Shown: positions 9,900-61,266 of the stretch, piece by piece
Position numbering within the stretch: the stretch's first letter is position 1
Layout: the number at the start of each line of letters is the position of its first letter
Source of the DNA: Candidatus Leucobacter sulfamidivorax
Lineage (GTDB): Bacteria > Actinomycetota > Actinomycetes > Actinomycetales > Microbacteriaceae
Direction: 5' to 3'
DNA: 64,000 nucleotides
Assembly: GCA_016771945.1 (NCBI GenBank)
Contig: QZLF01000001.1
Coordinates: forward strand, 124,001-188,000
The notes under the pieces: model-generated
What the model was told of the DNA's origin: nothing
The model's input: the letters and a program-made list of their open reading frames with translations, nothing else
Database searches by the model: none
Made by a program: the position numbers and the translations under genes

Positions 9900-9905
9900 T
9901 AGGCT
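9900..9905 (+). promoter_or_regulatory. leaderless -10 box of nucS
   Basis: TAGGCT, 6 nt before GTG 9912, no SD. Confidence 0.65.
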
Positions 9906-9911
9906 GGCACG

Positions 9912-10604
9912 GTGCGAATCGTGGTGGCCGACTGCTCCGTTGACTATGCGGGGCGCCTGAGCGCGCACCTGCCGCGCGCCACCCGCGTGCTCATGCTGAA
10001 GAGCGACGGCTCGATCCTCGTGCACAGCGACGGCGGATCGTACAAGCCCCTCAACTGGATGAGCCCGCCCTGCTCGCTCGCAGCCGGCGAGCCCGACGAC
10101 GAGCAGCGCGAGGCGGGGGTCGCCGAGGTGTGGCGGGTCACGCACGCGAAGACGGCGGATCAGCTCGTGGTGTCGCTCTTCGAGATCGTGCACGACTCCT
10201 CGCACGAGCTCGGGGTCGACCCGGGCCTCATCAAGGATGGCGTCGAGGCCCACCTGCAGGAGCTGCTCGCCGAGCAGATCGAGCTGCTGGGCGACGGGCA
10301 CACGCTCGTGCGCCGGGAGTACATGACGGCGATCGGCCCGGTGGACATCCTCGCGCGCGACTCCGGCGGGGCCTCGGTCGCGGTCGAGATCAAAAGAAGA
10401 GGCGATATCGATGGTGTTGAGCAACTGACAAGATACCTCGAGCTCATGAACCGGGATCCGGTGCTCGCGCCCGTCGCCGGGGTGTTCGCGGCGCAGGAGA
10501 TCAAGCCGCAGGCGCGCACCCTCGCCGAGGATCGCGGGATCCGCTGCGTCGTGCTCGACTACGACGCCATGCGCGGCATGCGCAATCTCAACACGCTGTT
10601 CTGA
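9912..10604 (+). CDS. nucS: endonuclease NucS/EndoMS (non-canonical mismatch repair)
   Basis: A 230-residue EndoMS of full length. The N-terminal dimerization domain begins [20 protein letters not shown]. The C-terminal RecB-like nuclease core has GPVDILARD and [11 protein letters not shown] with Glu159 and Lys161. It cuts both strands at mismatches and replaces MutS/MutL in actinobacteria. The sliding-clamp-binding tail (NLNTLF) is present. GTG start after a leaderless promoter. Oddity: codons over the catalytic core (10388-10440) are AT-rich with AAA, AGA, AGA, GAT, GGT, GTT, unlike the rest of the gene. Confidence 0.95.
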
Positions 10605-10678
10605 GCCACGGTCCCCTGCTGCCGCATCACACCGCCGAACCCTGTAGCTCCTCGGAGCAGCATGTTCGTGTTCACCAA

Positions 10679-11143
10679 TCATTCAGCTGAGGCCACTTTG
10701 TCTTCTGCCCGCAAAGACGTGAGCACCGCCTCGGCGAGTTCCCTTCCTTTCAGCTGCATATGTGCACCGAAGAACTCGAGGTGCGGTGCATGCTCCTGGA
10801 AATGATGAGGAGTGAGAACCGCTGAGAACATCGGCAGGTCTTCAGCCAGCTGAACCTGCATCAGCCCATTCACCACTGCGCTGGCTACGAAGTCATGCCG
10901 GTAGATTCCACCGTCAACCACCAGGGCACATCCAGCTATAGCAGCGTAGTCTCCTGACCGAGCAAGCCTCTGGGCCCGGAGAGGAATCTCGAAGGCTCCC
11001 GGAACTCGAAGCCGGTCGATTTTCAGATCAGGCACTTCCTCGTGAACTCTCTGGATGAAAGCCCCCGTAGCCTCGCTCACGAGTTCACCGTGCCATCCTG
11101 ACTCTACGACTGCAATTCGGATGGGCGTATGCGAATTCTTCAT
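10679..11143 (-). CDS. 6,7-dimethyl-8-ribityllumazine synthase, RibH2 type
   Basis: A 154-residue lumazine synthase. GGIYRHDFVASAVVNGLMQ with catalytic His83 and LTPHHFQEH match the type II (RibH2) proteins known from Brucella and rhizobia rather than the usual actinobacterial RibH. It condenses 5-amino-6-ribitylaminouracil with dihydroxybutanone phosphate to give the riboflavin precursor. ATG 11143 has GGAGG upstream; an upstream extension of the frame has no support. It is the last gene of the minus-strand catabolic operon, where no other riboflavin gene is found, so it may boost flavin supply or do a related condensation. Confidence 0.85.
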   Translation of the reverse strand: MKNSHTPIRIAVVESGWHGELVSEATGAFIQRVHEEVPDLKIDRLRVPGAFEIPLRAQRLARSGDYAAIAGCALVVDGGIYRHDFVASAVVNGLMQVQLAEDLPMFSAVLTPHHFQEHAPHLEFFGAHMQLKGRELAEAVLTSLRAEDKVASAE

Positions 11144-11287
11144 ACTCGTTCCTCCATCATCTTGACGATTGTTTGCTTCGGCCACCGCATGGGAACAAAG
11201 GCCTGACAGGGTCCGTTCCATCACTGAGAAGGTTGTCTCGGTCATCGTTGCTTCCGTCTCACATGTGGGACTCGCACGTTGGGGCGG

Positions 11288-11323
11288 GGTTGCCGGCTGG
11301 CAAACGCCCGTCAGCCGGCAACC
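11288..11323. terminator. hairpin between tautomerase and ribH genes
   Basis: A perfect 12-bp stem (GGTTGCCGGCTG, 11288-11299, pairing with 11312-11323) with a 12-nt loop. A second, mutually exclusive small hairpin TTGCC-GGCT-GGCAA lies at 11290-11303. No U-tract follows on either strand. It may attenuate transcription into the lumazine synthase gene or stabilise the mRNA end. Confidence 0.5.
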
Positions 11324-11382
11324 AGCTATCGGGCAGGCCGTCGGCGACAGCGCTGCCTCCGCTTTGCAGAGCGCGTCACGGT

Positions 11383-11571
11383 CTAGCCGAGCAGCTTGCC
11401 CCTGTAACCCCAGCGCGATGGTTCGACGCTGTGCAGAATGACGCTTGTGTCATTCCCGGCTTCTTCACCCAAGACCGAGGCGACCGCCTGTGTCAGCGCT
11501 TCGACCATCTTCTCGCTGAACTTCTCGTCGTCGAAACGTCTGTCGAAGAATGATGCTTCGATGTGTGCCAT
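11383..11571 (-). CDS. 4-oxalocrotonate tautomerase-like protein lacking Pro1
   Basis: A 62-residue protein, exactly the 4-OT subunit length, starting MAHIEASFFDRRFDDEKFSE and ending WGYRGKLLG, which matches the family's beta-alpha-beta fold and C-terminal GG/RG turn. The family's catalytic base is the N-terminal Pro after Met removal; here the codon is GCA (Ala). Tautomerase activity by the usual mechanism is therefore not expected. ATG 11571 has AAGGAAG upstream. It sits in the minus-strand operon between ribH2 and the amidohydrolase. Confidence 0.75.
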   Translation of the reverse strand: MAHIEASFFDRRFDDEKFSEKMVEALTQAVASVLGEEAGNDTSVILHSVEPSRWGYRGKLLG

Positions 11572-11690
11572 TGTTTCTTCCTTCTTTCTTTCTTCTCTCA
11601 TAGGTGTTCATGGGGAGGGGATCCCGGACAAGCAAAAGCAACCTCGACTTCGTCCGTTCAGATGCGCCCGGCTTGCGAACGGACGACGGA

Positions 11691-12989
11691 TCAGAGATCG
11701 AGCGTTTCCGACAGGCCACGCAGATACCGGGTAAGGTCGCGCCCGGATCGTACGACGTGTCTGATATTCGAGCGCTCGGTCAGACGGCTGATATCGGAAA
11801 GGACGTTCCCTTCTACGACTACTACGTCCCCGACGGCACCCGGCTGGAGAGAGCCGAGTTCCGGTCGGTTCAACAGCGACGCCGCATTCGTCGTGGCGGT
11901 GGTCAGAGCCTCGTCGACGGACATGCCGTGCTCCACATACAGCTCGAGTTCGCGAGCGTGCGCGCCGAACGGGCAAAGAGTTCCCGAAGAATCTGTACCC
12001 ATCGCTACTTTGACTCCTGCTGCACGCGCCAGCGTGAACGACTCGATTGTTCGGTCATGCGCTTCGCTGAGATCGGCCACGCCCTGAGCGCTCAGGCCCC
12101 GCTCGGTGCCTTCCCGCTGGCACCAGTCGTTGAAAGACATCGTGGGGACGAGGAACGTACCACGCTCGGCCATCTCAGCTGCCATGTCCTCGTCGAGGTA
12201 CGACCCGTGCTCGATCGAATCCACGCCCGCCGAGAGACTGCGCCTGATGCCTTCCGCGGAGAGCGCGTGTGCGGCGACCCGCAGATCCAACTCGTGAGCG
12301 GTCTCCACAATGATCGCGAGTTCGGGGGCCGTGTAGTTCGGCCAGTGCGGTTGCTCACCCTTCGACATCCCGCCGCTCGCCATCACCTTGATGAAGTCAG
12401 CACCCGCTCTGGCCTGCAGCCGCACGATCTTGCGGCATTCCTCGATGCCGTCCGCCGTATCCCACTTCATGCGCTGGGTATACGGTGGGAAGAAGAGATC
12501 GCCGTGGCCGTTCGTCATCGTGATCCACCACGGCGCGACCAGTAGCCGCGGCCCGACTGCCAACCCCTCATCGATGAAGTCGCGGAGTTCGACTTCACCG
12601 GCACCGCGATGCCCCATGACTCGCAGGGTCGTGAATCCGGCAGCAAGTGAGCGGTGGGCGTTCCTCAGCCCGTGCAGCAGTTTGCCGGGCTTGGTGACCT
12701 GGCCACGAAAGACATCACTTGCGACAACGCGCTGCTGGTCGGAGTTGGTCGTCAGGTGGACGTGCGCGTCGATGAGCCCGGGCAGAACCGTACAGCCTGT
12801 GGCGTCGAGGCGCGGGGTGCCTCGCGGCACCTCGACATCCAGAGGTGGACCGGCATAGACCACCGCGCCGGCGCGGACATGGACGAGCCCGTTCTCATAG
12901 TGCTCACCCCGGCCCGCCCAGATCGTGCCGCCTTCGATGACAATGTCGCCAGACGAACCCTGCGACCCGAAAACTTCTGGTTCTGGCAC
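11691..12989 (-). CDS. metal-dependent amidohydrolase (imidazolonepropionase-like)
   Basis: A 432-residue amidohydrolase. Metal-binding motifs in order: PGLIDAHVHL, the carboxylated-lysine segment GADFIKVMASGG, AAHALSAEG, GVDSIEHGSYL, and MGTDSSG with the catalytic Asp. This set fits a binuclear-zinc subtype I enzyme acting on a cyclic or linear amide. GTG 12989 is chosen because AAAGGGG precedes it and it lies 13 bp after the prs stop; an ATG at 13037 would overlap prs. In the operon it could hydrolyse an amide or formamide product after ring opening. Confidence 0.85.
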   Translation of the reverse strand: MPEPEVFGSQGSSGDIVIEGGTIWAGRGEHYENGLVHVRAGAVVYAGPPLDVEVPRGTPRLDATGCTVLPGLIDAHVHLTTNSDQQRVVASDVFRGQVTKPGKLLHGLRNAHRSLAAGFTTLRVMGHRGAGEVELRDFIDEGLAVGPRLLVAPWWITMTNGHGDLFFPPYTQRMKWDTADGIEECRKIVRLQARAGADFIKVMASGGMSKGEQPHWPNYTAPELAIIVETAHELDLRVAAHALSAEGIRRSLSAGVDSIEHGSYLDEDMAAEMAERGTFLVPTMSFNDWCQREGTERGLSAQGVADLSEAHDRTIESFTLARAAGVKVAMGTDSSGTLCPFGAHARELELYVEHGMSVDEALTTATTNAASLLNRPELGSLQPGAVGDVVVVEGNVLSDISRLTERSNIRHVVRSGRDLTRYLRGLSETLDL

Positions 12990-13002
12990 GGCTGCCCCTT
13001 TC

Positions 13003-13995
13003 TCAGAACGTATGGTTCTTCCCGCCGAAGACCTCACTCACGGAGTCATCGGTGAAGATCCGGTAGATCGTGTCCGCGAGCAGCGGGGCGCATGAGAGCA
13101 CCTCGATCTTGTCGGGGGCGCCTGGACGAAGCGGAATAGTGTCGGTGACGACGATCCGCTCGAAGGGCGATGCTGCAAGACGTTCGAACGCCGGCCCGCT
13201 GAAGACTCCATGAGTCGCTGCCGCAAACACCCGACGTGCCCCGGCACGCATGAGCGCATCTCCTGCGGCGCACAACGTACCAGCCGTGTCAATGATGTCG
13301 TCGATCACGATCGCGGTCTTCCCGTGCACGTCCCCGATCACAGTGTTGATCTCGGCGACCTGCTGCTGGGGCCTCTCCTTGTCGAGAATCGCCAGGCCGG
13401 CTCCGATCTGGGTAGCGAACTGCTTGTTGAGCTTCACACGACCGGCATCCGGAGCGACGACCACCAGGTCATCGTCCAAGTCGGCGAAGTACTCACCGAT
13501 GATTCCAGCGGCAGTCATGTGATCCAAGGGAATGCCGAAGAAGCCCTGGAGCTGGCCGGCATGCAGATCCATTGCAAGCACACGATCGACACCCGTGGCT
13601 TCGAGGGCACGCGCAACCATGCGTGCGGAGATCGGCTCACGTGGAGCCGACTTCTTGTCCTGCCTCGAGTACCCGTACCAAGGGGTCACCGCGATCACCC
13701 GATGCGCGCTCGAGCCGACGGCGGCGTCGACCATGACCATCAGTTCGAGGAGTGAGTCGTTGGCATTGACTCCGGTCTCGGGGTTTGCGCACATGGGTTG
13801 AACGATGAAGACATCGGCCCCGCGAATCGATTCGTCGAACCTGCTGTAGACCTCTCCGCTGGAGAAGGTCTTCAGCGTTACCTTGCCGAGTTCGATTCCG
13901 AGGAGCCCCACGATGTCTGCAGCCAGCGGTTCGTTGGACCGGCCCGAGAACACCATCAGCCGCTTGCCCGAAGCCGTCTGCAGGGAGGCGTTCAT
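13003..13995 (-). CDS. prs: ribose-phosphate pyrophosphokinase (PRPP synthetase)
   Basis: A 330-residue class I PRPP synthetase with all core motifs: FSSGEVYSRFDESIRG, YGYSRQDKK, DLHAGQLQGFF, and the PRPP-binding loop IVIDDIIDTAGTL. It turns ribose 5-phosphate and ATP into PRPP. A housekeeping prs normally sits with glmU, so this is likely a second copy dedicated to the operon, which also holds a ribokinase (supplying ribose 5-phosphate) and a nicotinamide phosphoribosyltransferase (using PRPP). Confidence 0.92.
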   Translation of the reverse strand: MNASLQTASGKRLMVFSGRSNEPLAADIVGLLGIELGKVTLKTFSSGEVYSRFDESIRGADVFIVQPMCANPETGVNANDSLLELMVMVDAAVGSSAHRVIAVTPWYGYSRQDKKSAPREPISARMVARALEATGVDRVLAMDLHAGQLQGFFGIPLDHMTAAGIIGEYFADLDDDLVVVAPDAGRVKLNKQFATQIGAGLAILDKERPQQQVAEINTVIGDVHGKTAIVIDDIIDTAGTLCAAGDALMRAGARRVFAAATHGVFSGPAFERLAASPFERIVVTDTIPLRPGAPDKIEVLSCAPLLADTIYRIFTDDSVSEVFGGKNHTF

Positions 13996-14121
13996 GAGTT
14001 CACCACTCCCGCCAAGTCGATCAGGATGCTCCCGTTCAACCTATCTGTGCTGCGCGTATCCGAATTCATGACTTGGAAACCTTTCGATTGTGACCAAACA
14101 CACCCCGCCGGCACGCCCGCA

Positions 14122-15066
14122 TCACACGCCAGCTCCGATGCTGGACAGCACGGCATCGATATCTGACGCGTCCGGCATGCTCGTGCGCGCCCCCGCCGAC
14201 TCCACGGACAACGCGGCGGCGGCAACGCCGCGACGCGCCGCCATGGTGAAATCGCATCCCCCTGCCAGGCTTGCGGCGAATACTCCGTTGAAGGTGTCGC
14301 CTGCGCCGGTGGTGTCGATCACCTGACGCGCCGACCCCGCCGGAATCCGGTTGCTGACTCCGGCAGCGCTGCAGAGCAGCACGCCTTCTGCGCCCAACGT
14401 AACGACCACCGGAGCCCGGCTGCGGGATGCTACCGCGGTCGCCATCGCCTCCACGGAAGCATCCCCGGTCCCGCCGAGTAGACGATAGAGATCCTGCAGC
14501 TCACCCCGATTCGGCGTGATGATCGGCGCGAACCGGAGGAGGTCGCAGGTGTCAGCAGTCACAGGAGCCGGATTGAGTACACAGAGCCACCCTTGCATCG
14601 CCGCGGCTTCGACACCCGCGGCAACCGCAGCCGCCGAAATCTCTGTGCTGATCAGGACGCAACTCGGCCACCCCTGAGCACGCTCCACCGCGACCGCCAC
14701 ATCCCGTGCCGTCACCTCCTCATTCGCCCCGGCTGCGACAGCTATCTGGTTTTCTCCAGCGGCGTCCACGACGATCAGGGCCGCCCCGGTAGCGCTTCCT
14801 TCTTTGACCACCACGTCAGTGACATCGACGCCTTCAGCATGCAATTCGGTCAGCGCAGTCGTCCCGAACTCATCGCTCCCTACGGCGCCGACGTAACGAA
14901 CCGCGGCTCCCGAGCGCGCTGCTGCCACAGCAGAATTGCCGCCTTTGCCTCCGCCATGGCGCTGCAGATGCGATCCCACAACGGTCTCACCCGGACCCGG
15001 CAGCCTCGGGGCAGCGACCACCATATCGACGTTCAGCGCACCGATGACCAGCAAGCGCCCGTTCAT
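14122..15066 (-). CDS. ribokinase-like PfkB sugar kinase
   Basis: A 314-residue PfkB kinase: GGKGGNSAVAAARSGA near residue 40, the ribokinase-type NPAPV, TPNRGEL, and the anion-hole/catalytic motif DTTGAGDTFNG. These fit ribokinase (RbsK). It would make ribose 5-phosphate for the PRPP synthetase encoded next. ATG 15066 gives the family's usual N-terminus (MNGRLLVIGALNVD). A GTG at 15087 with GAAGGA six bases upstream is an equally good start and would add seven residues. Confidence 0.85.
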   Translation of the reverse strand: MNGRLLVIGALNVDMVVAAPRLPGPGETVVGSHLQRHGGGKGGNSAVAAARSGAAVRYVGAVGSDEFGTTALTELHAEGVDVTDVVVKEGSATGAALIVVDAAGENQIAVAAGANEEVTARDVAVAVERAQGWPSCVLISTEISAAAVAAGVEAAAMQGWLCVLNPAPVTADTCDLLRFAPIITPNRGELQDLYRLLGGTGDASVEAMATAVASRSRAPVVVTLGAEGVLLCSAAGVSNRIPAGSARQVIDTTGAGDTFNGVFAASLAGGCDFTMAARRGVAAAALSVESAGARTSMPDASDIDAVLSSIGAGV

Positions 15067-15140
15067 ACCGATTCCATCCAAGGGCACACCATTTCCTTCA
15101 GTTGCATCTCCGCCCCGATCGACTACCTTCCAATGTGCTT

Positions 15141-15914
15141 CTACGCCTTCTCGGTGCGCGCAGTCCACGCGAGAAGGGACGTCCACATCCCGGCGTAGTG
15201 GGGCCAGTCAAGGAACTCCTGGGGCGCCCAGTGCGGGGCAAGATCCGAAGCGAATGCGGCTGTCCGCCCCTCGCCGAATTCACCGACGACCAGCATCGGA
15301 TCGTCACCCACCCGGGCTACGACAGTGGCATCCGGCTTCGCGATGAGCCTGTTGTAGCCGAGCAGTTCAGGCCAGTCCGAAGGCGTACCACCGAGGACCG
15401 CGTGATCAGGCGCACACACCTCGACCCCGACGCCCTCTGGCCGCTCGATGCGGTCGTCGTACGGCAGCATCATCACAGGAAGCGGCTCAGCAAGCGGGCT
15501 CATCGCATATCGGCCCTTGCCATCGATCCCGGTGAAGGACAGATACCCCCCGACCATGACCAGGCCACCGCCCCGCTGCACGAAGTCAGCCACCAGACCG
15601 AGCCGGTTCGGCGACTTCTCGGATCGCAGGAAGGTCTCGTCGGGCAATAGGAAGGAGTTGGACCCGATATCGGAGATCACGACCAGATCGAACTCGTCGA
15701 TCTCCTCCGCTGAGCGGGGGAACCGCGATGTGATCTCGTGAGCACGAACGTAGGTCACATCAAAGCCAGCCCTATCGAGGCATTCCAGAAAGACCCCGGC
15801 CCCTTCTTCGTACTCGGTCGAGTGAAACTGGTCGAAGCCCTTCATATGGATCGTGTGCTTCACCCACGACTCTCCGACGAACAAGACATTGATGGGTGAT
15901 TCGATTGTGGTCAT
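15141..15914 (-). CDS. glutamine amidotransferase-like (GATase1-like) protein
   Basis: A 257-residue protein of the putative GATase1-like family (PF07090-type): NVLFVGESWVKHTIHMKGFD at the start, FDLVVISDIGSNSFLL, FVQRGGGLVMVGGYLSFTG and HWAPQEFLDWPHYAGMW. The fold is that of class I glutamine amidotransferases and ThuA-like proteins, but no clear Cys nucleophile elbow is seen, so the reaction is unknown. It could bind a sugar or amide. It lies between the HAD phosphatase and ribokinase genes of the operon. Confidence 0.75.
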   Translation of the reverse strand: MTTIESPINVLFVGESWVKHTIHMKGFDQFHSTEYEEGAGVFLECLDRAGFDVTYVRAHEITSRFPRSAEEIDEFDLVVISDIGSNSFLLPDETFLRSEKSPNRLGLVADFVQRGGGLVMVGGYLSFTGIDGKGRYAMSPLAEPLPVMMLPYDDRIERPEGVGVEVCAPDHAVLGGTPSDWPELLGYNRLIAKPDATVVARVGDDPMLVVGEFGEGRTAAFASDLAPHWAPQEFLDWPHYAGMWTSLLAWTARTEKA

Positions 15915-15936
15915 CAGCTTGTATTTCCTTATTCGC

Positions 15937-16617
15937 TCAGTACTGTCCGGTTGATGTCTTCAGGAGTTGACGGCCCATCGCATACGCTTCACGGATGTCG
16001 GTACCCACATAACTCGTCGCTGCCAGCGGTGCCAGCACGGGCGCCGGATTCACCCCGACGGTGCGCGAGAACCTCGAGAAGAGCCCCACATCACTGGAGG
16101 AATCGCCGTAAACGACGCAGTTCTCCCCGCTCAAGTCCCGGGCGGCGAGAGCCGCCTCGGTAATCGAGACCTTCACCTCTGGCATGAGTGTGGCCGAGTT
16201 CCCCAACGGCATCCCAGGTTCCACTGCAGAGCCGTACGTCTCATGAGCTCCCCAGAGTTCGAGCCTGCGAACAAAGAAGGCCGGCGACTGGGAGATGACG
16301 ATCACCTCCTCGCCGCGGGAGCGGATGTCCGCGAAGGTTCCAATAACCCCTTCCATCCAAGGCGCGTTATGGAAAGCCTGGTCGAAATCGGCGGTGGTGG
16401 CGTCTTTGCAGATCTCGAGGAGCCGCAACCAGAAATCGGTGTCGGTGATCCGGTTCTCGAACCACAGGTTCTCGATCTCTCGGCCGGCATCGAGTTGGCC
16501 CACCTGGCGGGCCAACTCGATGCTGGCGGTGCTCCTCAACAAGGTGCCGTCCATGTCGAAGACATGGAGGCAGCCGGTCTTCTCGGAACTATGCACGTTC
16601 ATTCTCTCCGCTGTCAT
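15937..16617 (-). CDS. HAD family phosphatase (SerB-like)
   Basis: A 226-residue HAD-IB hydrolase: FDMDGTLLRSTAS (nucleophile and acid Asp), VIVISQSPAFFV (motif II), K149-region and VVYGDSSSDVGLFSRF (motif IV). It removes phosphate from a small substrate; in this context a nucleotide or ribose phosphate is possible (inference). The start overlaps the aldehyde dehydrogenase stop. ATG 16617 is used; ATG 16602, directly after GGAGAGA, is an alternative that removes five residues. Confidence 0.8.
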   Translation of the reverse strand: MTAERMNVHSSEKTGCLHVFDMDGTLLRSTASIELARQVGQLDAGREIENLWFENRITDTDFWLRLLEICKDATTADFDQAFHNAPWMEGVIGTFADIRSRGEEVIVISQSPAFFVRRLELWGAHETYGSAVEPGMPLGNSATLMPEVKVSITEAALAARDLSGENCVVYGDSSSDVGLFSRFSRTVGVNPAPVLAPLAATSYVGTDIREAYAMGRQLLKTSTGQY

Positions 16618-18091
16618 ACCGTGGCTTCTCGTCGAGCACGATCGTCTTATTCTCGAGGTACGGCAATAGCCCTGCTACGCCGCCCTCGCGCCCCACACCC
16701 GACTGCTTGAACCCACCGAAACCGATCCCGAAGTCCGCCCGGTTGCCGTTCTGCCCGACAGTCCCTGTGCGCAGACGCCTGGCGACCTCGCGCGCGCGGG
16801 TCGCGTCGTGGGTGAACACTGCAGCGTTTAGGCCGAACACCGAGTCATTCGCGATTCGGATTGCGTCGTCTTCGTCTGCCGCAGCGATGACCGAGGTCAC
16901 CGGCCCGAAGATTTCCTCTCGGGCCAGTCTCGAAGAATTGTCGACGTTGCCGAAGACCGTCGGCTCGATGAACCAGCCTCGGTCGAGACCCTTGGGCCGA
17001 CCGCCGCCGAACGCGAGAGTCGCGCCTTCCTCCTTACCGATCCGGACATAGCTCTCGACCACGTCGCGCTGCCTTCGCGAGGCCAGCGGCCCCATCCCGA
17101 CACTGGAATCGAATGGATCCCCTACCAGAACCCGAGAATACCGATCGGCGAGCGCCTCGACCAGTTCATCGTGTCGGTGACGAGGCACGATGATCCGGGT
17201 CATCGATGCGCAGATCTGACCGGTGAGGAAGCAGGTACCACCGGTGAGTCTGTCCGCGACCTCGGCGATCTCCATATCCCCGAGAATGACCGCAGCCGAC
17301 TTACCGCCGAGTTCGAGCGTGTACCGCCCAATACGTTCACCCATGATTCCGGCGATTCTCTTGCCCACCGCCGTTGAACCGGTGAAGGTGATCTTGTCGA
17401 CACGATGATCATTCACCAGCGCCTCAGACGCCCCCCGGTCGGCGGTGAGCACGTTCACCACCCCGGGAGGGAGCCCGATCGCTTCGGCGATCTCCGCGAT
17501 CAGGTATCCTGCGCTCGGGGCCTCGGGCGACACCTTGACGACCACGGTGCATCCGGCGAGCAGCGCGGGGGCGAGCTTGTAGGCGAGGAGATGAATCGGT
17601 GTGTTCCAAGGGATGATCGCTCCGACCACACCCACGGGTTCGCCTACCAACAGTCCGAAGCCTTCGCCCGAGCTGGTGGCAACCTCCTGTTCGAAGGGGT
17701 ATCCGTCGGCGAGATCCGCATAGTAGTCGAACGCCGCAGGCACCTCCTCCATTGCAGACGGCACAACACGAGCGAGGACGCCTGACTCGCGCGGCCAGAA
17801 CTGCACCACATCGTTGACTCGCTCCTCCATCGCCGCGGCGATGGCGCGAAGGTACTCTGCCCGTCGGCCCGGGGACATCCGCGGCCACGGGCCTTCGTCG
17901 AAAGCCCGACGAGCCGCCTCCACTGCTCGCGCAATATCTGCCTCTTCGGCTTCCGCGACGCTGAAATACAGTTCTTCTGTCGCGGCCTCGATCACCTCGA
18001 TCCTATGACTCGTCGACGGATCGACCCACTTTCCGTCGATGTAGAACTTCCCCGGGGTCACGAAGGGAGCCCCTGCTGTCTTGGTCTTCAT
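16589..18091 (-). CDS. aldehyde dehydrogenase
   Basis: A 500-residue NAD(P)-dependent aldehyde dehydrogenase: IPWNTPIHLLAYKLAPALLA, FTGSTAVGKRI (cofactor loop), LELGGKSA (general base Glu), GQICASMTRI (catalytic Cys), EEIFGPV and GGFKQSGVGRE. It oxidises an aldehyde to an acid. In pyridine and trigonelline pathways an enzyme of this family oxidises the semialdehyde left after ring opening. ATG 18091 has GGAG further upstream. The 156 bp before the next gene (18092-18247) hold only a weak 8-bp inverted repeat. Confidence 0.93.
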   Translation of the reverse strand: MKTKTAGAPFVTPGKFYIDGKWVDPSTSHRIEVIEAATEELYFSVAEAEEADIARAVEAARRAFDEGPWPRMSPGRRAEYLRAIAAAMEERVNDVVQFWPRESGVLARVVPSAMEEVPAAFDYYADLADGYPFEQEVATSSGEGFGLLVGEPVGVVGAIIPWNTPIHLLAYKLAPALLAGCTVVVKVSPEAPSAGYLIAEIAEAIGLPPGVVNVLTADRGASEALVNDHRVDKITFTGSTAVGKRIAGIMGERIGRYTLELGGKSAAVILGDMEIAEVADRLTGGTCFLTGQICASMTRIIVPRHRHDELVEALADRYSRVLVGDPFDSSVGMGPLASRRQRDVVESYVRIGKEEGATLAFGGGRPKGLDRGWFIEPTVFGNVDNSSRLAREEIFGPVTSVIAAADEDDAIRIANDSVFGLNAAVFTHDATRAREVARRLRTGTVGQNGNRADFGIGFGGFKQSGVGREGGVAGLLPYLENKTIVLDEKPRYDSGENERA

Positions 18092-18247
18092 ATGAATCGT
18101 GTATCTCCAAATCTCCGATTGCGGCGAAGCCCATGATCGCGAACCATCGCATACGAGGCCTTCATCGACTCGCCTGTCTGGCGATGGTCTCCCGTTCCGG
18201 CAGCCGCGCATCCGCATTCCCTGGGCTGAGTCCGTGCGATCTTGACG

Positions 18248-18589
18248 TCATGCCCGTGCCCCCAGCGCATCGTCGAACGGTCCCGAATCGACTGTCCGGC
18301 GGCGTATGGCCTGGTAGAGAGCGCCAGTTTGCTCGGCATTCGCGAGCGCCGAGTTCCAGTCGGGGTCCGTGATGAAGGCCCCCCATTTCCGCTCGAGTTC
18401 GGCCAGGTCAGAGAATCGCATCGTGTAGACGATCTCGTTGTACGAGTGGTCGCCAATGGTCGTGAGGCCGGCCTGCACGATCTCCATCCCATGCTTTCGG
18501 AAAAGCGGAATCACGACGGACGTGAACAGGTCGATGACGTCTCCCATTCGTCCCGGCATCGGAATGTACTCGCGTACCTCGTAGATCAT
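18248..18589 (-). CDS. NIPSNAP family protein
   Basis: A 113-residue ferredoxin-like alpha+beta barrel protein of the NIPSNAP family: MIYEVREYIPMPGRMGDVID at the start, YNEIVYTMRFSDLAELERKW, and FITDPDWNSALANAE. Members often sit next to flavin-dependent oxidoreductases and catabolic genes; their reaction is mostly unknown. ATG 18589 has GAGGAG nine bases upstream. It follows the monooxygenase gene by about 110 bp. Confidence 0.8.
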   Translation of the reverse strand: MIYEVREYIPMPGRMGDVIDLFTSVVIPLFRKHGMEIVQAGLTTIGDHSYNEIVYTMRFSDLAELERKWGAFITDPDWNSALANAEQTGALYQAIRRRTVDSGPFDDALGARA

Positions 18590-18697
18590 GTGATTGCTCT
18601 CCTCATGCTGTATTCGTGTTCTGCGCTGCGGTCGAGGGCTGGAATGCCGAACTCCTCCGCCGTTCAAGGAGATGCGGCGCCGACGGAATAGGCGACG

Positions 18698-19792
18698 TCA
18701 ATCGGCGAACGCCGGGAGCACCTCAGCGGCCATCATCTCCATGTTCTCGATGATCGCGTCGATGGGCTGCCCCACCGCGATGAGGCACGCGAGATGATCC
18801 ACTCCCAGCTTCTCGTAGCTCTTGAACCGCTCGATCATGCGGTCGGGCGTGGTGAGCACCGGATCGGCATACTTCTCAAGCAGATTGTCCTTGGAGAATG
18901 AGTGCTGCTCAGGGCGCATCTTTCCACCGTGCACGTAGTCGCGGCTCTCGCCCACATCGCGAGTAGCGAGGCGGCCCTCGCGCGTGTCGACAGTACCGGG
19001 GCCCTTGACGAGCGCCATGTAGTGGTTGTACTCGTTCAGGACGTCATCGAAGTACTCCAGCGCCTCCTCCTCGGTGCGTCCGAGCCAGGTGTGCCGGAGG
19101 ACCATGACCTCTCCGCGGGGCTTTCCGGTCTGGGCGATCTCGTCGTTGTAGCTCTCCAGCAGTTCCTCTAGGTCACCATATGGTTCGAAGTTGCCGTAGT
19201 TCGGTGCCGTGATGAGATTCAATCCCTGCTGCGCGACCCTGCGCACGCCATCATTGCTCTGGGATGCGACCCAGATATCAGGATGCGGCTTCGTAACCGG
19301 CTTCGGTACGAGGGTCGTCGGAGGGAAGGACCAGAACTCTCCGTCGTATGACACGTCATCCTCGGTGAAGAGACGGCGAAGGATCTCTAGCCCTTCCTCG
19401 TACTTCGCACGCTGCTCCTCCGGTTTCACGCCCAGTCGGTCGAGCTGGAGACGGCTCCCGCCGCGCGCTACGCCGATGCCGACCCGACCCGGAGCGAGAT
19501 GATCCAGGAGGCTCATCTCGGAGGCGACGAGGAGCGGGTTGTACGCCGGCAGGACGACGACACCGGGGACAATCCGTAGCCGTTTGGTTCGCATGGCCGC
19601 CACCGTCGAGAACATCATCGCAGAGGGGTTGCACACGTAGTTCTGGAATTGGTTCTCATTGATGGTGATTCCCTCGAAGCCGAGTCTCTCAGCGGCATCG
19701 ACGATCCTGATCATGTCGTCGAGCACCTCCGACCAGGGCTGCGTCATGTCTGCCCAGAAGAACGGCGTCGTTACCCAGATCTTCATTCCCAT
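18698..19792 (-). CDS. LLM class flavin-dependent monooxygenase
   Basis: A 364-residue luciferase-like TIM-barrel protein: GFEGITINENQFQNY, LRIVPGVVVLPAYNPLLVAS, GRVGIGVARGG and HPDIWVASQSNDGVRRVA. The family uses FMNH2 (or F420H2) and oxygen. Two-component members include pyridine (PyrA-type) and N-methylnicotinate (TgnB-type) ring-opening enzymes, a role that would suit this operon (inference). ATG 19792 has AAAGGAG six bases upstream. The likely flavin reductase partner is the oxidoreductase at 22983. Confidence 0.9.
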   Translation of the reverse strand: MGMKIWVTTPFFWADMTQPWSEVLDDMIRIVDAAERLGFEGITINENQFQNYVCNPSAMMFSTVAAMRTKRLRIVPGVVVLPAYNPLLVASEMSLLDHLAPGRVGIGVARGGSRLQLDRLGVKPEEQRAKYEEGLEILRRLFTEDDVSYDGEFWSFPPTTLVPKPVTKPHPDIWVASQSNDGVRRVAQQGLNLITAPNYGNFEPYGDLEELLESYNDEIAQTGKPRGEVMVLRHTWLGRTEEEALEYFDDVLNEYNHYMALVKGPGTVDTREGRLATRDVGESRDYVHGGKMRPEQHSFSKDNLLEKYADPVLTTPDRMIERFKSYEKLGVDHLACLIAVGQPIDAIIENMEMMAAEVLPAFAD

Positions 19793-19935
19793 TGTCTACT
19801 CCTTTAAGACTGTGTACGTGAACTCGGCCAGGGGCGAGGAGGATATCGGGCGCTCGCCTTCGATCAGTCGCCGATTGGAAGGTCAGGAGTCGTGACGCCC
19901 GAGGCGGCAGCGAGACCGCCTCGGGCATCACGAGT

Positions 19936-21402
19936 TCAAACGGCCAGTGGCTGGGCAGCTCGAGCGGGTTCCAGCATCGGCGCGATCCAGCTCTCGTACC
20001 ATTCCCGCGGCACCGGAGTCTCGCTGGCGGCGATCAGTTCCGAGAAGTCCCACTTCCTCAGAAGCTTGCCGTTGCGGAAGACGGGCTGGAGCAGGTTCCG
20101 ATCAGGTGCCACGGAATCACGCGGGACCGTCCGGTACTCGTCGTTCTCCTTGATCAGAGCCAGCCTGCCGGCCTTCGAGACCTTGAAGTCGGCACCCGTC
20201 GGGGATTTGGAGATGTCCTTCCATTCCCCGTCGACGCGGATCGCGTTCGCCTTCTGCCCGAAGTTCAACGTATCCCGGTTGATGTGCTGGAGGAGGCCCC
20301 CGCCCATGCCGAAGATCGCGTTGTCGGCGGCCAGCCCACGGCGCTCGAGTTCGATGTACACATCTCGGAGGCTCGTCGCCGTGACACCGTCTCCTTGAAC
20401 GACCCGGATGAACGGAGGCAGCAACTTGAAGCCCTTGCTGTTGACCTCATACCCGAAGGCTTCCATCAGCCACTCAGTCGTATCGGCAGTCACCTGCACG
20501 ACGTCTCCTGAGTCGGGGCGGGCTCCCACGAGACCGGGGAAGTTCTGGACCATCTCCTTCAACTCACCGCCGAGGATGTTCTTGATGCAGTTCTCGTGAT
20601 CGTAGGTGTCGGTGAGAACCAGTGCGACACCGGAGTCGCTGTGTACCTCGAGCATGTTCCGGATCGCATCGACCTCACGATCCCGGCCCCAGGCGGTGAA
20701 TCCTGCATGCTCCGAATTCGGGCCCGAGTTCGAAGGGGCGACGGCGTTGTACCAGCGCTTCGCAGCGAGAATGCCCGGGGTCGTATCGCTTTGGTTGAAG
20801 TTCACCAGGTGGGCCATGCCGCCCAGCGCGGCGGACTGCTGCGAACTCACCCCGCGTGCACCGTAATCGTGCAGCATGAAGCGCAGGAGATGCCCGTTAT
20901 CGGAGGTGCGTTCGAGGGCTGTCCGGATCACCTGCTTGGAGAGCCAGCTGATCGTACCGACGGAGGTCGGATACCAGACGGCGCGTAGCAGCGCCGTCTC
21001 GAAGAAGCTGGTCACCCAGTAGTACTTCGGGTCGGTGTTGATGAGTTGCACAAGAACGTTGCGAGTGGGGAGGACCGTGCCTTCAGGCACGGCCTCTATC
21101 TCGACCGGCAGGTAACCGTCGTGGTCGTTGAGGATGCCGATCCAGTTCTCGCGGTTGAAGTGCATGCCCTGCTCGCGCATGAGGTACTCGGCCGCATCGA
21201 TATCCTCCAGCGTCACGGGGCGCATGAGGTAGTCGCGGATGAAGGCCTGAAGACCGACGAACATTGTGACGGGGTAAGCCCCGCCGCGGGACTCGATGTA
21301 CGAAGAGATGTATTCGGTACCCGGCGGGTAGAGCGGGTAGTGGCAGTGCTTGTAGTTGTCGGTGTTGATGATGATGTTGTCGAACTGCTCACCCAAGGAC
21401 AT
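19936..21402 (-). CDS. nadV: nicotinamide phosphoribosyltransferase
   Basis: A 488-residue protein that aligns along the whole NAMPT/NadV family. Active-site residues correspond to human NAMPT: Tyr17 (Y18), Tyr180 (F193), Arg183 (R196), Asp206 (D219, selects the amide), His232 (H247, phosphorylated) and Arg295 (R311). Two changes stand out: the FGYRG loop is YGARG, so F193 is Tyr and Y195 is Ala, which widens the ring pocket. It makes NMN from nicotinamide and PRPP, or the ribotide of a related pyridine. It is the first gene of the minus-strand operon; GGGAG precedes ATG 21402. Confidence 0.9.
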   Translation of the reverse strand: MSLGEQFDNIIINTDNYKHCHYPLYPPGTEYISSYIESRGGAYPVTMFVGLQAFIRDYLMRPVTLEDIDAAEYLMREQGMHFNRENWIGILNDHDGYLPVEIEAVPEGTVLPTRNVLVQLINTDPKYYWVTSFFETALLRAVWYPTSVGTISWLSKQVIRTALERTSDNGHLLRFMLHDYGARGVSSQQSAALGGMAHLVNFNQSDTTPGILAAKRWYNAVAPSNSGPNSEHAGFTAWGRDREVDAIRNMLEVHSDSGVALVLTDTYDHENCIKNILGGELKEMVQNFPGLVGARPDSGDVVQVTADTTEWLMEAFGYEVNSKGFKLLPPFIRVVQGDGVTATSLRDVYIELERRGLAADNAIFGMGGGLLQHINRDTLNFGQKANAIRVDGEWKDISKSPTGADFKVSKAGRLALIKENDEYRTVPRDSVAPDRNLLQPVFRNGKLLRKWDFSELIAASETPVPREWYESWIAPMLEPARAAQPLAV

Positions 21403-21540
21403 CGCAGCTCCCTTCCTGTAGGTGACATTTGTTGAGAACCGAATCAGTCGCCAATCGACTATTAACGATTCGCTACAGAGGCGTCAACGGTCAGCCGTGA
21501 CTGCCGATTATTCCTGGTTTGGAGACATCAATTGACATAA

Positions 21541-21554
21541 TAGAAAGCTTTCTA
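21541..21554. promoter_or_regulatory. 14-bp palindrome, candidate operator
   Basis: TAGAAAGCTTTCTA, perfect and overlapping a TATTAT box of the nadV-side promoter. A repressor bound here would block RNA polymerase. Confidence 0.5.
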
Positions 21555-21706
21555 GTGACAGACCTTAACGACGGATCATTCGCCGTGTCAAGGGAAAAAT
21601 CTCGAAACTCGCTTGTAACTTGCTTGTAAACACTGGCGCATACCCGCAGTGCCGCGCCTGCTAGCGACCTGTGCCAAACCGCTCAATCCCCCGCTTCTCA
21701 GCAGAT

Positions 21707-21738
21707 CCATCTAGAATCATGGAAAGGATTCTAGATGG
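21707..21738. promoter_or_regulatory. 12-bp inverted repeat upstream of lacI
   Basis: Arms CCATCTAGAATC and GATTCTAGATGG with an 8-nt spacer, 126 bp before the lacI start. It is a candidate operator or an RNA hairpin in the lacI leader. Confidence 0.5.
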
Positions 21739-21863
21739 AGAGTAGCGCGGTCTGACTTCTCCCCGTCAGACGCGTTGATCAGTACTTGCGCCTAGAACCG
21801 ACTACTATTGGCGTGCAACGACCGTGAATCAACGCATGACGTGCGGACATCATAGGGGCGATC

Positions 21864-22907
21864 TTGGTAAAGGGTTCGGGGGCTACGCCGACGCGTAGGC
21901 CCACGATGAAGGACGTGGCCGAGCAAGCCGGTGTCTCGGTCAGCACCGTGAGCTACGTACTCAATGACAGTGGCCCTGTCGCAGCCGAACGACGGGCGCG
22001 AGTACTCGAGGCGGTCCGAGCACTGGGCTATCTCCCGAACGAGTCCGCCCGTAATCTCAAGCGTCGTAGCGTAGCCACCATCGGTCTCGTCATCCCAGAC
22101 CTTGTGAATCAGCACTTCGCCATGGTCGCGGAGGGGGTAGAGCAAGCCGCATCCGAGAAGGACGTTCTCGTGGTGCTATGCACGCCCGAGGCGGCCGGCG
22201 ACGGAGAATCCTGGAACAGTCGTCTGCTGCGCAGCCAGAGGCTTGACGGGCTCATTTACCTGTCCGGCGCCGAGACCCGGATGGAATCCTTGGTGGAGCT
22301 GACTCGCGTCGGTCCCGTTGTGCTGGTCGACGAGAAGCTTCCAGGCTTCGGGCTTCCGTGCGTTGTCTCTCAGAACCGCCGGGGAGCCCGGGAGATTGCA
22401 GCCCACGTGACTTCTCTGGGGCACAAACGCCTCGCGATCCTCAGCGGCCCGCTCGAGCTTTGGACGGCTGAGCAACGCCTCTCAGGCTACCGAGAAGCGG
22501 TCGCCGCGGCAGGATTGGATCCTGACTCCGTGCCCGTACTCGTCGGCGACTATCAGATGTCGTCGGGCGAGCGTCTAGCCTCGGAAGCCCTGGCGCTCCC
22601 CGCGGACCAGCAGCCGACGGCTCTGATCTGCGCAAACGACCTGATGGCGATCGGTGCCCTCTCCTACTGTCGCCGAGCGGGGCTCAGGGTGCCCGAGGAT
22701 ATCTCGGTCGTCGGATTCGACGACCTCCCATTCGCTTCTCTCCTCACACCGGGGCTCACCACCGTCCGACAGCACCCACGCGAGATGGGAGTGGAAGCAG
22801 CCCGGCTGCTCCTCGGCATCGTGGACGGTGCCGACCCGATTTCCCCTCCGCCCTTGCCGGTGTCGATCAAGATCCGAGAGTCGACGGGCCGGGTTCCTGC
22901 AGCCTGA
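21864..22907 (+). CDS. LacI family transcriptional regulator
   Basis: A 347-residue LacI/GalR regulator: N-terminal HTH (MKDVAEQAGVSVSTVSYVLN) with hinge helix, then a periplasmic-binding-protein-like effector domain (IGLVIPDLVNQHFAMVAEG, DGLIYLSGAETR, ALICANDLMAIGAL, VVGFDDLPFASLLTPGLTTV). The last blocks match ribose/purine-type repressors, so the effector may be a ribosylated compound (inference). TTG 21864 with GGGG upstream is used; ATG 21906 would remove part of the usual N-terminus. It faces the nadV operon and probably represses it. Confidence 0.9.
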   Translation: MVKGSGATPTRRPTMKDVAEQAGVSVSTVSYVLNDSGPVAAERRARVLEAVRALGYLPNESARNLKRRSVATIGLVIPDLVNQHFAMVAEGVEQAASEKDVLVVLCTPEAAGDGESWNSRLLRSQRLDGLIYLSGAETRMESLVELTRVGPVVLVDEKLPGFGLPCVVSQNRRGAREIAAHVTSLGHKRLAILSGPLELWTAEQRLSGYREAVAAAGLDPDSVPVLVGDYQMSSGERLASEALALPADQQPTALICANDLMAIGALSYCRRAGLRVPEDISVVGFDDLPFASLLTPGLTTVRQHPREMGVEAARLLLGIVDGADPISPPPLPVSIKIRESTGRVPAA

Positions 22908-22982
22908 ATGGACTCCCTGCGCCACTGGAGCCATCCGCCATCGCGACCGTCGAGATGCTCCACTCTGCAGATGCGAATTCGG

Positions 22983-23585
22983 CTAGAGCTCTTCGAAGAG
23001 CTGCCGCACAATGGTTCTCGCCTGACCGCGCAGTTCGCGGTAGTGCATCGGCAGATCTTCGACCTCATCAGCAAGGGTGTTGTACAGGAGGTCGAGCCGA
23101 CTGTTCTCTATCCCGCAGAACCCAGCGATCCCCACATCGAGCTGTCGTGACATCATGACGTCATAGTCTCGCTTCCGGAATGATGTCCTCGTCAATCCGG
23201 CGAGGCCGATCCACCGCACGGCTTTCAGGCGCGACTCATGAGACCCGCCGTAGAGCAAGCCGTAGTTCCACACCCGATCGATGTACCCCTTCATGATCCC
23301 CGGCAGGGAGAACCACCAGACCGGGAATACGAGGACGACTGCATCAGCAATCATTGTACGAACCGCGTGCTCCATCACCTCTTGCGTGTACTGCTTCGCG
23401 GGTTCGTCCCAGTCCGGTTCGTCCGCGGTGCCAAGGGTGCCGTCGAACCCCTCCCGGTACAAATCGATCAGATCCAGGCTCGCACCGAGGTCTTCGAGCT
23501 CATCGACGATATCCGAGACGATTGCGGCAGTCAGCGAGTCGGATCTCGGGTGAGCCCAGGTCACCTGAATGATCTTCTCGGACAC
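22983..23585 (-). CDS. flavodoxin-fold NAD(P)H oxidoreductase (NQO1/MdaB-like)
   Basis: A 200-residue flavodoxin-like protein: WAHPRSDSLTAAIVSD near the N-terminus binds the FMN/FAD phosphate, and FPVWWFSLPGIMKGYIDRVW is the family signature of NAD(P)H-quinone reductases. It could supply reduced flavin to the luciferase-like monooxygenase encoded on the other side of lacI (inference). It converges with lacI and is divergent from the nucleoside hydrolase gene. Confidence 0.88.
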   Translation of the reverse strand: MSEKIIQVTWAHPRSDSLTAAIVSDIVDELEDLGASLDLIDLYREGFDGTLGTADEPDWDEPAKQYTQEVMEHAVRTMIADAVVLVFPVWWFSLPGIMKGYIDRVWNYGLLYGGSHESRLKAVRWIGLAGLTRTSFRKRDYDVMMSRQLDVGIAGFCGIENSRLDLLYNTLADEVEDLPMHYRELRGQARTIVRQLFEEL

Positions 23586-23705
23586 GGCTGGTTCCCTCTT
23601 TCAATCGCTTCCAATTCGAGATCCGGCCCGAACCATGATGTGACTACGCCTTCTTCACCGGCGAACTCGAGTACGGCATCAGCATCGATATTCCCCACCA
23701 TAACA

Positions 23706-23715
23706 GAATCGATTC
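23706..23715. promoter_or_regulatory. GAATCGATTC palindrome in divergent promoter region
   Basis: A 10-bp palindrome with central CG, as in many LacI-type operators. It lies mid-way in the 272-bp gap between the oxidoreductase and nucleoside hydrolase genes. The half-site CGATTC recurs at 23755-23760 and in the nadV/lacI region at 21466-21471. Confidence 0.4.
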
Positions 23716-23857
23716 ACCTTCTGCCTTCATGCTATGTTCGCCTCAGAGAAGAAACGATTCTTTGTCATCGAGTCAAGGCCGCGATGACCGTGAAGCCCCG
23801 CCCGCCGATCACTTCGGCTCACCCGCAGCACCCTGATCAGTGAGGACATTCCACAAG

Positions 23858-24814
23858 ATGAGACACCGCGTACTTCTTGATGTCGATACCGGCCGCGACG
23901 ACGCCCTCGCCCTCATGTTCGCTGTGCTGCATCCCGACATCGAGATCCGGGCCATCACTTGCGTAGAAGGCAACACCGGTCTCGAGAATGTGGTCAGCAA
24001 CACTCTGAAGATTCTCGATCTGCTCGACGCGCCGCCTATCCCCGTCGCTCTCGGCGCGAGGCGTCCGCTCATCGAGCCGCCTCGGGATGCGTCTTGGATC
24101 CACGGCGTCACCGGGTTGGGAGACGTGGAGCTGCCCGTCAGTGCGCGTGAGCCGGAGCAAATCCATGCCGTCGAGCTGATGCGGCGGAGCATCCTTGATT
24201 CCGGAACGCCTCTGACCATCGTCGCACTGGGCCCGATGACCAATATCGCACTGCTGCTCCGAACTCATCCAGAAGTCTCCGACCGGATCGGACGAATCAT
24301 CTTCATGGGCGGATCAGCGACCATAGGCAACGCGACGCCGGTGGCCGAGTTCAACTTCTGGCATGATCCAGAATCGGCGCATATCGTGCTCACCAGCGGA
24401 ATCCCCCTGACGATGTATGGCTGGGATCTCCTCTGGAGCATCAAGACGAGCACCCCGCAGATCGCCGAACTTCAGGCCTCTTCGAACCCGATTCGCGAAG
24501 TGGCAGGTCGCCTGCTCGGGTTCGAAGCCTCCGATCCCTCGAACGGCGCGAAGGTGCTCTACAACTGCATCGGCGACGCCGGGACCCTGTGCGTCCTGGT
24601 CGCCCCCGAACTCTACGACATCGTGCGCTGGCCTGTGCAGCTCGTCCTCGCCGCCGGCCCTGCTCGGGGACAGACGCTCGTCGACCGGCGCGCTATACCC
24701 GGGGAGGATTCGGTGCACGACGTCGCCGGTGACGTACCCGTCATCGAAGTAGTCGGCGCGGCTCGCAACGCCCAGATCCTCGCCCTGTTCTTCGACACGC
24801 TCGGAGAGGCTTGA
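23858..24814 (+). CDS. inosine-uridine preferring type nucleoside hydrolase
   Basis: A 318-residue ribonucleoside hydrolase: LDVDTGRDDALALMFA holds the Ca-binding D-x-D-x-G-x-D-D cluster, ALGPMTNIALLL and FMGGSATIGNATPVAEFNFW are the other family motifs. It cleaves the N-glycosidic bond and frees ribose and base. In this island the ribose would feed ribokinase and PRPP synthetase. ATG 23858 follows GAGGA at 11 nt; a GTG at 23840 in frame lacks an SD. Confidence 0.9.
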   Translation: MRHRVLLDVDTGRDDALALMFAVLHPDIEIRAITCVEGNTGLENVVSNTLKILDLLDAPPIPVALGARRPLIEPPRDASWIHGVTGLGDVELPVSAREPEQIHAVELMRRSILDSGTPLTIVALGPMTNIALLLRTHPEVSDRIGRIIFMGGSATIGNATPVAEFNFWHDPESAHIVLTSGIPLTMYGWDLLWSIKTSTPQIAELQASSNPIREVAGRLLGFEASDPSNGAKVLYNCIGDAGTLCVLVAPELYDIVRWPVQLVLAAGPARGQTLVDRRAIPGEDSVHDVAGDVPVIEVVGAARNAQILALFFDTLGEA

Positions 24815-24899
24815 CACGGTACCTCCCACGAACGGAAGGACCGATGCGTCATCGATGGCGGGCCCGGCCGGTCCCGGCTCTTGGCGACGGCTGTTGGAG

Positions 24900-25370: not shown

Positions 25371-25533
25371 GGCTGCCTCTCGACAATGAACAGGAGCACT
25401 CTACGCGTCTAGCTCCCCATCACTCCGGAGAGCCACACGACAACACACAGCGTACTGCAATCGCAGGGCAGGGCATCCACCCTACCCACTGCGCTTTCGT
25501 TGACGTTCACCAACGCACTTCTCACCATCTCGA

Positions 25534-61239: not shown

Positions 61240-61266
61240 ACCACATGGCCGGCTCTGAGCGTGCGT

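Follow-up and report, generated by a model that had tools for sequence, protein, structure and literature searches.

A probable phosphoribosyl-handle regulon for catabolism of pyridine-type heteroaromatics in Candidatus Leucobacter sulfamidivorax and other bacteria

We analysed a 64,000-nucleotide stretch of the Candidatus Leucobacter sulfamidivorax genome (assembly GCA_016771945.1, contig QZLF01000001.1, positions 124,001 to 188,000), hereafter the window, and a gene set in it that sits on a low-GC island (61.7% GC against 70.3% in the remainder of the window). Judged from sequence comparisons, this cluster is probably a catabolic regulon in which a pyridine-type heteroaromatic compound would be given a reusable phosphoribosyl handle, the ring would be opened, and the ribose would be returned to phosphoribosyl pyrophosphate (PRPP). 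We propose that the gene set is a horizontally spread, mobile catabolic regulon. The initial annotation of the island had suggested phosphoribosyl-activated nicotinamide catabolism with PRPP recycling; the activation and recycling logic is supported here, because NadV, PRPP synthetase (Prs) and ribokinase travel with ring-opening enzymes, NadV, LLM, ALDH and Prs units share an operator motif upstream, no NadM was found in 24 cluster sequences, and the host genome encodes another Prs and another RibH elsewhere. An F420-type variant of the cluster is an addition to that annotation.

Gene set and distribution

All the genes named in the initial annotation were present by family matches. Eleven of them, from NadV to RibH2, follow one another on the minus strand, some overlapping and with intergenic gaps of at most about 160 bp. 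They encode a NadV-like phosphoribosyltransferase of a catabolic clade (19936-21402; NAMPT_N 80 bits and NAPRTase 119 bits, both over the curated cut-off, and the NCBIfam model PRK09198 513 bits, cut-off 405), an LLM (luciferase-like) flavin monooxygenase (18698-19792; Bac_luciferase), a NIPSNAP-domain protein (18248-18589), an aldehyde dehydrogenase (ALDH, 16589-18091), a HAD-IB phosphatase with a DxDGT motif (15937-16617), a PF07090 'GATase1_like' protein (15141-15914; a homologue of PDB 2gk3 and of STM1381, 3soz), a PfkB ribokinase (14122-15186, with the likely start inside this frame), Prs (13003-13995; Pribosyltran_N and Pribosyl_synth domains), an amidohydrolase (11691-12989), a 62-aa 4-OT-like protein without Pro1 (11383-11571) and a RibH2-type lumazine synthase (10679-11245; PRK12419 192 bits, cut-off 160). 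Divergent from NadV lies a LacI-family gene (21864-22907, plus strand), whose best solved-structure match is RbsR, followed by a Flavodoxin_2 NAD(P)H oxidoreductase (22983-23585, minus; domain match) and a nucleoside hydrolase (23840-24814, plus; IU_nuc_hydro). Prs belongs to the PRPP synthetases by TIGR01251 (349 bits, cut-off 113), and its K206 and R208, which we take to be the K/R loop, are invariant in the 19 sequences aligned. One NadV, a second Prs (45% identity) and a second RibH (34%) were found in the host genome at E<=0.001, so the island Prs and RibH2 are extra copies. In a structure model of the LLM protein (mean pLDDT 75) the nearest folds were luciferase-type enzymes, which is expected and not decisive.

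Relatives were sought with LLM peptide patterns in a collection of 84,980 species, a scan that can miss distant relatives. It yielded 11 loci, 10 of them 71-88% identical to the window LLM, in actinomycetes (Prauserella, Amycolatopsis, Marmoricola, Nocardioides, two Williamsia, Pseudarthrobacter) and alphaproteobacteria (Pseudodonghicola and two metagenome-assembled genomes, one of Rhodobacteraceae and one of Alphaproteobacteria); L011, with a distant LLM only and none of the neighbour genes, was rejected as a cluster member. Six of 72,556 plasmid records also carried the LLM gene, namely Arthrobacter crystallopoietes pLDW-10, typed as conjugative, and five from Rhodococcus. The genes are rare near the host: LLM occurred in 1/396 genomes of the order (the host's own), and NadV in 4/296 genomes of the class (E<=1e-40) and 2/396 of the phylum (E<=1e-100), own genome included.

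The initial annotation had suggested looking for the same gene set in other genomes, and we counted it in 14 loci besides the window (L001-L010 and L014-L017, from Actinomycetes and Alphaproteobacteria). LLM, NIPSNAP, ALDH, HAD phosphatase, PF07090, ribokinase, Prs and the 4-OT-like gene each occurred in 14/14, an association beyond chance. NadV and LacI were each found in 13/14, the contig of L004 stopping 48 bp before LLM, and the amidohydrolase in 11/14; L003, L004 and L006, where it is missing, encode a SnoaL-flavin reductase fusion protein along with an alpha/beta hydrolase. The cluster is split into several rearranged units in Williamsia and Rhodococcus. Of the parts named in the original proposal, the nucleoside hydrolase and RibH2, both present in the window, recur in only 5/14 (three at 74-75% identity, two at 41-44%) and 3/14 other loci (the three alphaproteobacterial ones, 47-50%), respectively. 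RibBA is encoded in L001 (Prauserella), with a homologue in L002 (Amycolatopsis). The flavodoxin-fold reductase, which the initial annotation noted nearby, was considered as the partner of the monooxygenase; it was found in 0/14 other loci, so that we rejected it in this role and regard its membership in the cluster as doubtful. A Flavin_Reduct-type reductase fills the reductase place in several other loci, and homologues of this type occur in the host on a different contig (29-32% identity).

Two family names mislead. None of the cysteines is invariant among 16 PF07090 sequences as the catalytic Cys of a class I glutamine amidotransferase would be, and the protein is therefore probably not such an enzyme; the 4-OT-like proteins have Ala after Met in 10/13 cases, the window's included, and Pro in L008, L009 and L015. 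The genes labelled 'GATase1-like' and '4-OT-like' are present as first described, and the activities implied by the labels are doubtful. In the Arthrobacter cluster (L014, 23396-23846) the 4-OT-like gene stands twice in tandem. No recognisable transporter was seen among the conserved genes of the 14 loci, whose flanking genes are partly annotated. In Rhodococcus an MFS gene lies about 12 kb from LLM. Upstream of LacI in the Pseudodonghicola cluster (L003, 3049-5703), translations resemble an ABC permease, an ATPase and a substrate-binding protein, which may together import the substrate.

NadV pocket, operator motif and the F420-type variant

Seventeen cluster NadVs were aligned with six references (NAMPT from human and Xanthomonas with four further NadVs; human numbering). 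D16, R196, E246, H247, D279, R311 and D313, which we take to be the catalytic residues of NAMPT, are retained in 17/17. All 17 and none of the six references have Q217 (G in the references), G242 (V/I) and L277 (V), and position 309 is G, A or C in 17/17 cluster proteins against I or V in 6/6 references; Y193 for F and N244 for A occur in 15/17, and L275 for S/A in 14/17. The 17 proteins form one clade (support 100/100), and we read the NAMPT base pocket as having been altered once and then kept. Within the clade, the F420-type proteins of JS3073 and G658 group with two Williamsia proteins of the LLM-type (O-type) cluster (95/93), in a tree that drew a program warning about meeting long branches, including those of DK176 and its sister. 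Outside the clade, the salvage-type NadVs of the NadM-NadV plasmid pairs (L030-L032) have an adjoining gene for a nicotinamide mononucleotide (NMN) adenylyltransferase-Nudix protein or a close homologue in 3/3 cases. By tblastn with three control proteins, a NadM-type NMN adenylyltransferase was found in 0/24 cluster sequences (L072 not included; NadD-type enzymes not tested). Prs-like and NadV-like genes also pair on an Arthrobacter plasmid (L033) and in two genomes of the host's genus (L082, L083), at 29-31% identity to the window NadV; these may be NAD-restoring pairs of phage type.

A LacI-type palindrome, TAGAA-N4-TTCTA, recurs across the clusters. In 14 O-type sequences (the window, L001-L010, L014, L015 and L025; 288,821 bp) there are 18 exact copies, spread over 11 of the sequences, against a mean of 0.0 in shuffled sequence (first-order Markov shuffles, ten per locus). 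At no more than one mismatch there are 34 occurrences in the O-type sequences (expected 1.4), 14 in six F420-type loci (expected 0.3; one exact) and 0 in seven control loci (expected 0.9). The exact copies are found upstream of NadV, LLM, ALDH or Prs units, and weaker ones also stand before LacI, nucleoside hydrolase and HAD genes; the two Williamsia loci, with their split units, have an exact site before each of NadV, ALDH and LLM. The window's exact site, TAGAAAGCTTTCTA (21541-21554), lies 139 bp before NadV. A TTGACA hexamer noticed by eye on the minus strand (from 21591) stands about 37 nt upstream of the site; a promoter consensus scan of the window did not list this promoter. A second site with one mismatch (21720-21733), 144 bp before LacI, suggests that LacI regulates itself. 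The exact 10-mer of the window operator is confined to the window's own locus, and it is the degenerate motif that the others share. We infer that LacI binds TAGAA-N4-TTCTA and regulates the cluster. That Prs, NadV and the monooxygenase share an operator is the strongest argument for PRPP supply being part of the pathway.

Seven further loci combine NadV with PNPOx-type reductase and cupin genes, with no LLM match in the stretch (for L034, by annotation): plasmids from Rhodococcus DK176 (L022), WAY2 (L023) and ZPP (L034), JS3073 (L024), and G658, G586 and G1059 (L028, L029 and L072). NadV and Prs are found in 7/7, and the HAD phosphatase and a nucleoside hydrolase homologue in 6/7 each. Four (L022, L023, L024, L034), on Rhodococcus plasmids, carry F420 biosynthesis genes adjacent to NadV, which are FbiB-, CofC- and CofGH-like and are accompanied by a pgl (6-phosphogluconolactonase) gene. 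In DK176, two CoA-transferases fit the succinate-glutarate CoA-transferase model best (338 and 329 bits, cut-off 750), and there is also an acyl-CoA dehydrogenase pair. This distribution supports the view that the constant part is the phosphoribosyl handle (NadV with Prs and, in most loci, the phosphatase) and that the redox module is exchangeable. In G586 (L029, 9028-13457) an intact NadV is accompanied by pieces of a second one, with a further LacI piece at the end of the locus and a 33% homologue of the window flavodoxin reductase, the sole such neighbour among eight loci examined. G428 has an LLM-type cluster plus a second NadV.

Proposed pathway, substrate and alternative explanations

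Every chemical step of the pathway is one that we infer. As the NadV family and pocket suggest, NadV would couple PRPP to the nitrogen of the ring. The product, an N-(5-phosphoribosyl)pyridinium, would carry a positive charge that opens the ring to attack. By analogy with the pyridine and trigonelline pathways, the LLM monooxygenase, with reduced flavin mononucleotide (FMNH2) and O2, would cleave the C2-C3 bond to an N-formyl, N-ribosyl enamine aldehyde, which ALDH would oxidise. The amidohydrolase, perhaps replaced by the alpha/beta hydrolase in the three alphaproteobacterial loci, would remove the formyl group as formate, and hydrolysis would yield succinic semialdehyde and ribosylamine. At a stage that is not fixed, the HAD phosphatase would take the 5'-phosphate off the ribotide; ribose would be freed by hydrolysis, partly by the nucleoside hydrolase, and converted by ribokinase to ribose 5-phosphate and by Prs to PRPP. 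The co-occurrence of HAD phosphatase and ribokinase indicates that the sugar would leave as ribose rather than as ribose 5-phosphate. The window's RibH2, like the RibBA of L001/L002, may serve flavin supply; together with the RibH2 of the three alphaproteobacterial loci, these genes would fit a high flavin demand. In the F420-type variant, the PNPOx-type reductase and cupin would instead reduce the ring, leading to a C5 dialdehyde and glutarate.

Neighbouring genes bear on the substrate. In the Pyr pathway the C5 ring yields formate and a C4 semialdehyde, and ring reduction would give glutarate. Four Rhodococcus plasmid clusters (L015-L017 and L025) add a succinic semialdehyde dehydrogenase (SSADH; in L015, TIGR01780 560 bits, cut-off 646), and beside the cluster FdhD accompanies an oxidoreductase of the FdhF/YdeP family. 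These four loci hold LLM, flavin reductase, ALDH, amidohydrolase and SSADH together. A second ALDH in four other loci is 51-54% identical to the L015 SSADH. The window cluster itself has no conserved flavin reductase and no SSADH, homologues of both (the SSADH at 54%) lying elsewhere in the host genome. SSADH, the FdhF-type oxidoreductase and the glutarate-type CoA-transferase as neighbours fit a C5 ring, and pyridine best. Carriers include Rhodococcus pyridinivorans and a coking-plant isolate, which is suggestive only. A gene for removal of a carboxamide carbon was not found among the genes conserved in the 14 loci. The substrate is probably not nicotinamide, because there is one NadV clade with a remodelled pocket, no NadM neighbour, and neighbours that fit a C5 ring. 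We put unsubstituted pyridine at just short of an even chance; another pyridine or N-heteroaromatic is a serious contender that we hold to be possible, and nicotinamide or a close amide is rather unlikely.

Catabolism of nicotinamide, NMN or nicotinamide riboside by the same handle logic, with NMN as the ribotide, was the original proposal, and it would account for the NadV family membership, for the nucleoside hydrolase nearby, and for H247 and R311 in 17/17 and D219 in 15/17 cluster NadVs (E in the other two). It sits badly with the changes at positions 217, 242, 277 and 309 in 17/17 and of S/A275 to L in 14/17, with the lack of a conserved carboxamide-removing gene and with the C5-type neighbours in other genomes, and we consider it unlikely. 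Still less probable is that NadV and Prs merely serve NAD salvage, or are a phage-type NAD-restoring pair standing beside a catabolic operon whose LLM enzyme acts on a free substrate. NadV is linked to the cluster in 13/14 loci from two phyla and shares the operator motif with Prs and the catabolic units, its clade has its own pocket, no NadM was found in the 24 cluster sequences (NadD-type enzymes not tested), the host has a separate Prs, and the NadV-Prs linkage persists where the redox module differs; these points count against salvage, an outcome that the initial annotation had named as fatal to its proposal, even though Prs-like and NadV-like pairs exist in other settings (L033; L082 and L083, 29-30% identical to the window NadV) and NadV is the sole NAPRTase-family match in the host at E<=0.001. 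A cluster that makes, modifies or detoxifies a pyridine nucleotide analogue, rather than using a carbon or nitrogen source, might be suspected from the nearby F420 biosynthesis, RibH2 and RibBA genes, which could point to cofactor chemistry; the end-stage catabolic look of SSADH, FdhF-type and glutarate-type CoA-transferase genes in several loci, the LacI-type regulator and the carriage on Rhodococcus and Arthrobacter plasmids make this very improbable.

Several observations weigh against the catabolic handle regulon that we favour. D219 and R311, which presumably hold the amide of nicotinamide in NAMPT, are retained in most cluster NadVs and keep nicotinamide in play, and the position of NadV as sole NAPRTase-family match in the host, with relatives scoring near the E<=0.001 limit, means that NadV may also contribute to NAD salvage. 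The operator motif does not occur everywhere: L003, L004 and L010 have no exact site (L003 has one-mismatch sites only, L004 a single one within LLM, L010 two-mismatch sites only), the F420-type L028 and L072 have none at no more than one mismatch, and some F420-type matches fall inside genes. The F420-type loci are incomplete in ribokinase (4/7, that of L034 cut at the end), PF07090 (3/7) and LacI (3/7); their PNPOx-type proteins score 38.4 bits with the best model, TIGR03618, against a cut-off of 79.05, below the F420 model threshold; and the glutarate genes come from one plasmid lineage only. ALDH and amidohydrolase in the window, and SSADH and CoA-transferase in other loci, are under the curated cut-offs of their best-fitting models; an FdhF/YdeP match is no proof of formate dehydrogenase activity; and the window LLM is only 24-25% identical to the LLMs of a pyridine-like Roseovarius cluster. 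Finally, the loci are related rather than independent samples, with near-duplicates in L008/L009 and L015/L025.

As for the surroundings of the island, the right-flank GNAT, TetR and BioY genes were not found in the stretches of about 1.5 kb that flank nucS at 30 loci, the window's own included; in G677, of the same genus, only nucS aligns, so no clean empty insertion site was obtained, and no exact direct or inverted repeats of at least 12 bases are common to 9900-10899 and 24500-25699. The window has a second low-GC stretch (60001-64000, about 60%). Judged by eye from their translations, the genes there include one for an XRE-cupin-like regulator at 59382-59939 and a class V aminotransferase-like gene at 60097-61239; the minus strand carries an ABC ATPase and a substrate-binding lipoprotein with the look of polyamine-type uptake.

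Known systems and significance

The Pyr pathway (pyrABCDE) of Arthrobacter sp. 68b reportedly attacks free pyridine and has no phosphoribosyltransferase, phosphatase, ribokinase or Prs. Compared by description rather than by PyrA sequence, the cluster resembles it in LLM monooxygenase, ALDH and amidohydrolase, joined in the Rhodococcus loci by flavin reductase and SSADH, and in the proposed C1 plus C4 end products, and differs in adding NadV, phosphatase, ribokinase and Prs; the presence of NadV and Prs in the regulon would argue against direct attack on free pyridine. The trigonelline (Tgn) pathway of Acinetobacter is said to open an N-substituted pyridinium by oxygenolysis, and the likeness, again drawn from description and not from Tgn sequences, extends to the subsequent ALDH and hydrolase; there, the methyl group on the nitrogen comes with the substrate, and no substituent is known to be added or recycled. 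On a Roseovarius pelagicus plasmid (L039, 4718-18064), three LLM monooxygenases, two flavin reductases, two amidohydrolases and an ALDH occur without NadV, an arrangement that suggests a cluster of Pyr/Tgn type for opening a pyridine or pyridinium ring. Its amidohydrolases are 49-50% identical to the window's, whereas its LLMs are at the 24-25% given above and no NadV, Prs, ribokinase or HAD gene is among its annotated genes.

In Microbacterium, rca is a riboflavin catabolism cluster (PMC12746152). Compared with NAD salvage by NAMPT/NadV, our cluster has the same enzyme family with the catalytic residues retained, and differs in its remodelled pocket, separate clade, catabolic neighbours and the absence of a detected NadM. 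Like ours, the rca cluster is a set of catabolic genes in an actinobacterium that reportedly combines an LLM enzyme with the handling of a sugar; it is reported to remove an existing sugar chain and is not known to include a phosphoribosyltransferase or Prs, whereas here a phosphoribosyl group would be put on. We know of no system of the kind proposed here, with a reusable phosphoribosyl handle and exchangeable redox modules, and its parts are of known kinds. No description of phosphoribosyl-handle ring catabolism was found in the full-text literature searched, a body that subscription papers mostly lie outside, so that a prior description is possible.

Pyridine catabolism has two classical end-product patterns, and its first step has proved difficult to detect in extracts. 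We offer as a tentative extension, short of an even chance, that PRPP serves as a reusable handle on unsubstituted pyridine or a close relative, with FMN/O2 and F420H2 redox modules being interchangeable. If this is true, one handle with two modules would explain both end-product patterns, as well as why the first step was elusive in extracts without PRPP; the predicted PRPP requirement would have been missed by ordinary assays, and one handle for two redox chemistries is a strong and directly testable prediction. It would also mean that the NAMPT fold was recruited to a catabolic role and that a new activation of an inert aromatic ring exists beside CoA thioesters and oxygenases. The clusters would then provide test strains and genes for pyridine-type pollutants, and could explain the breakdown of such chemicals by some bacteria.

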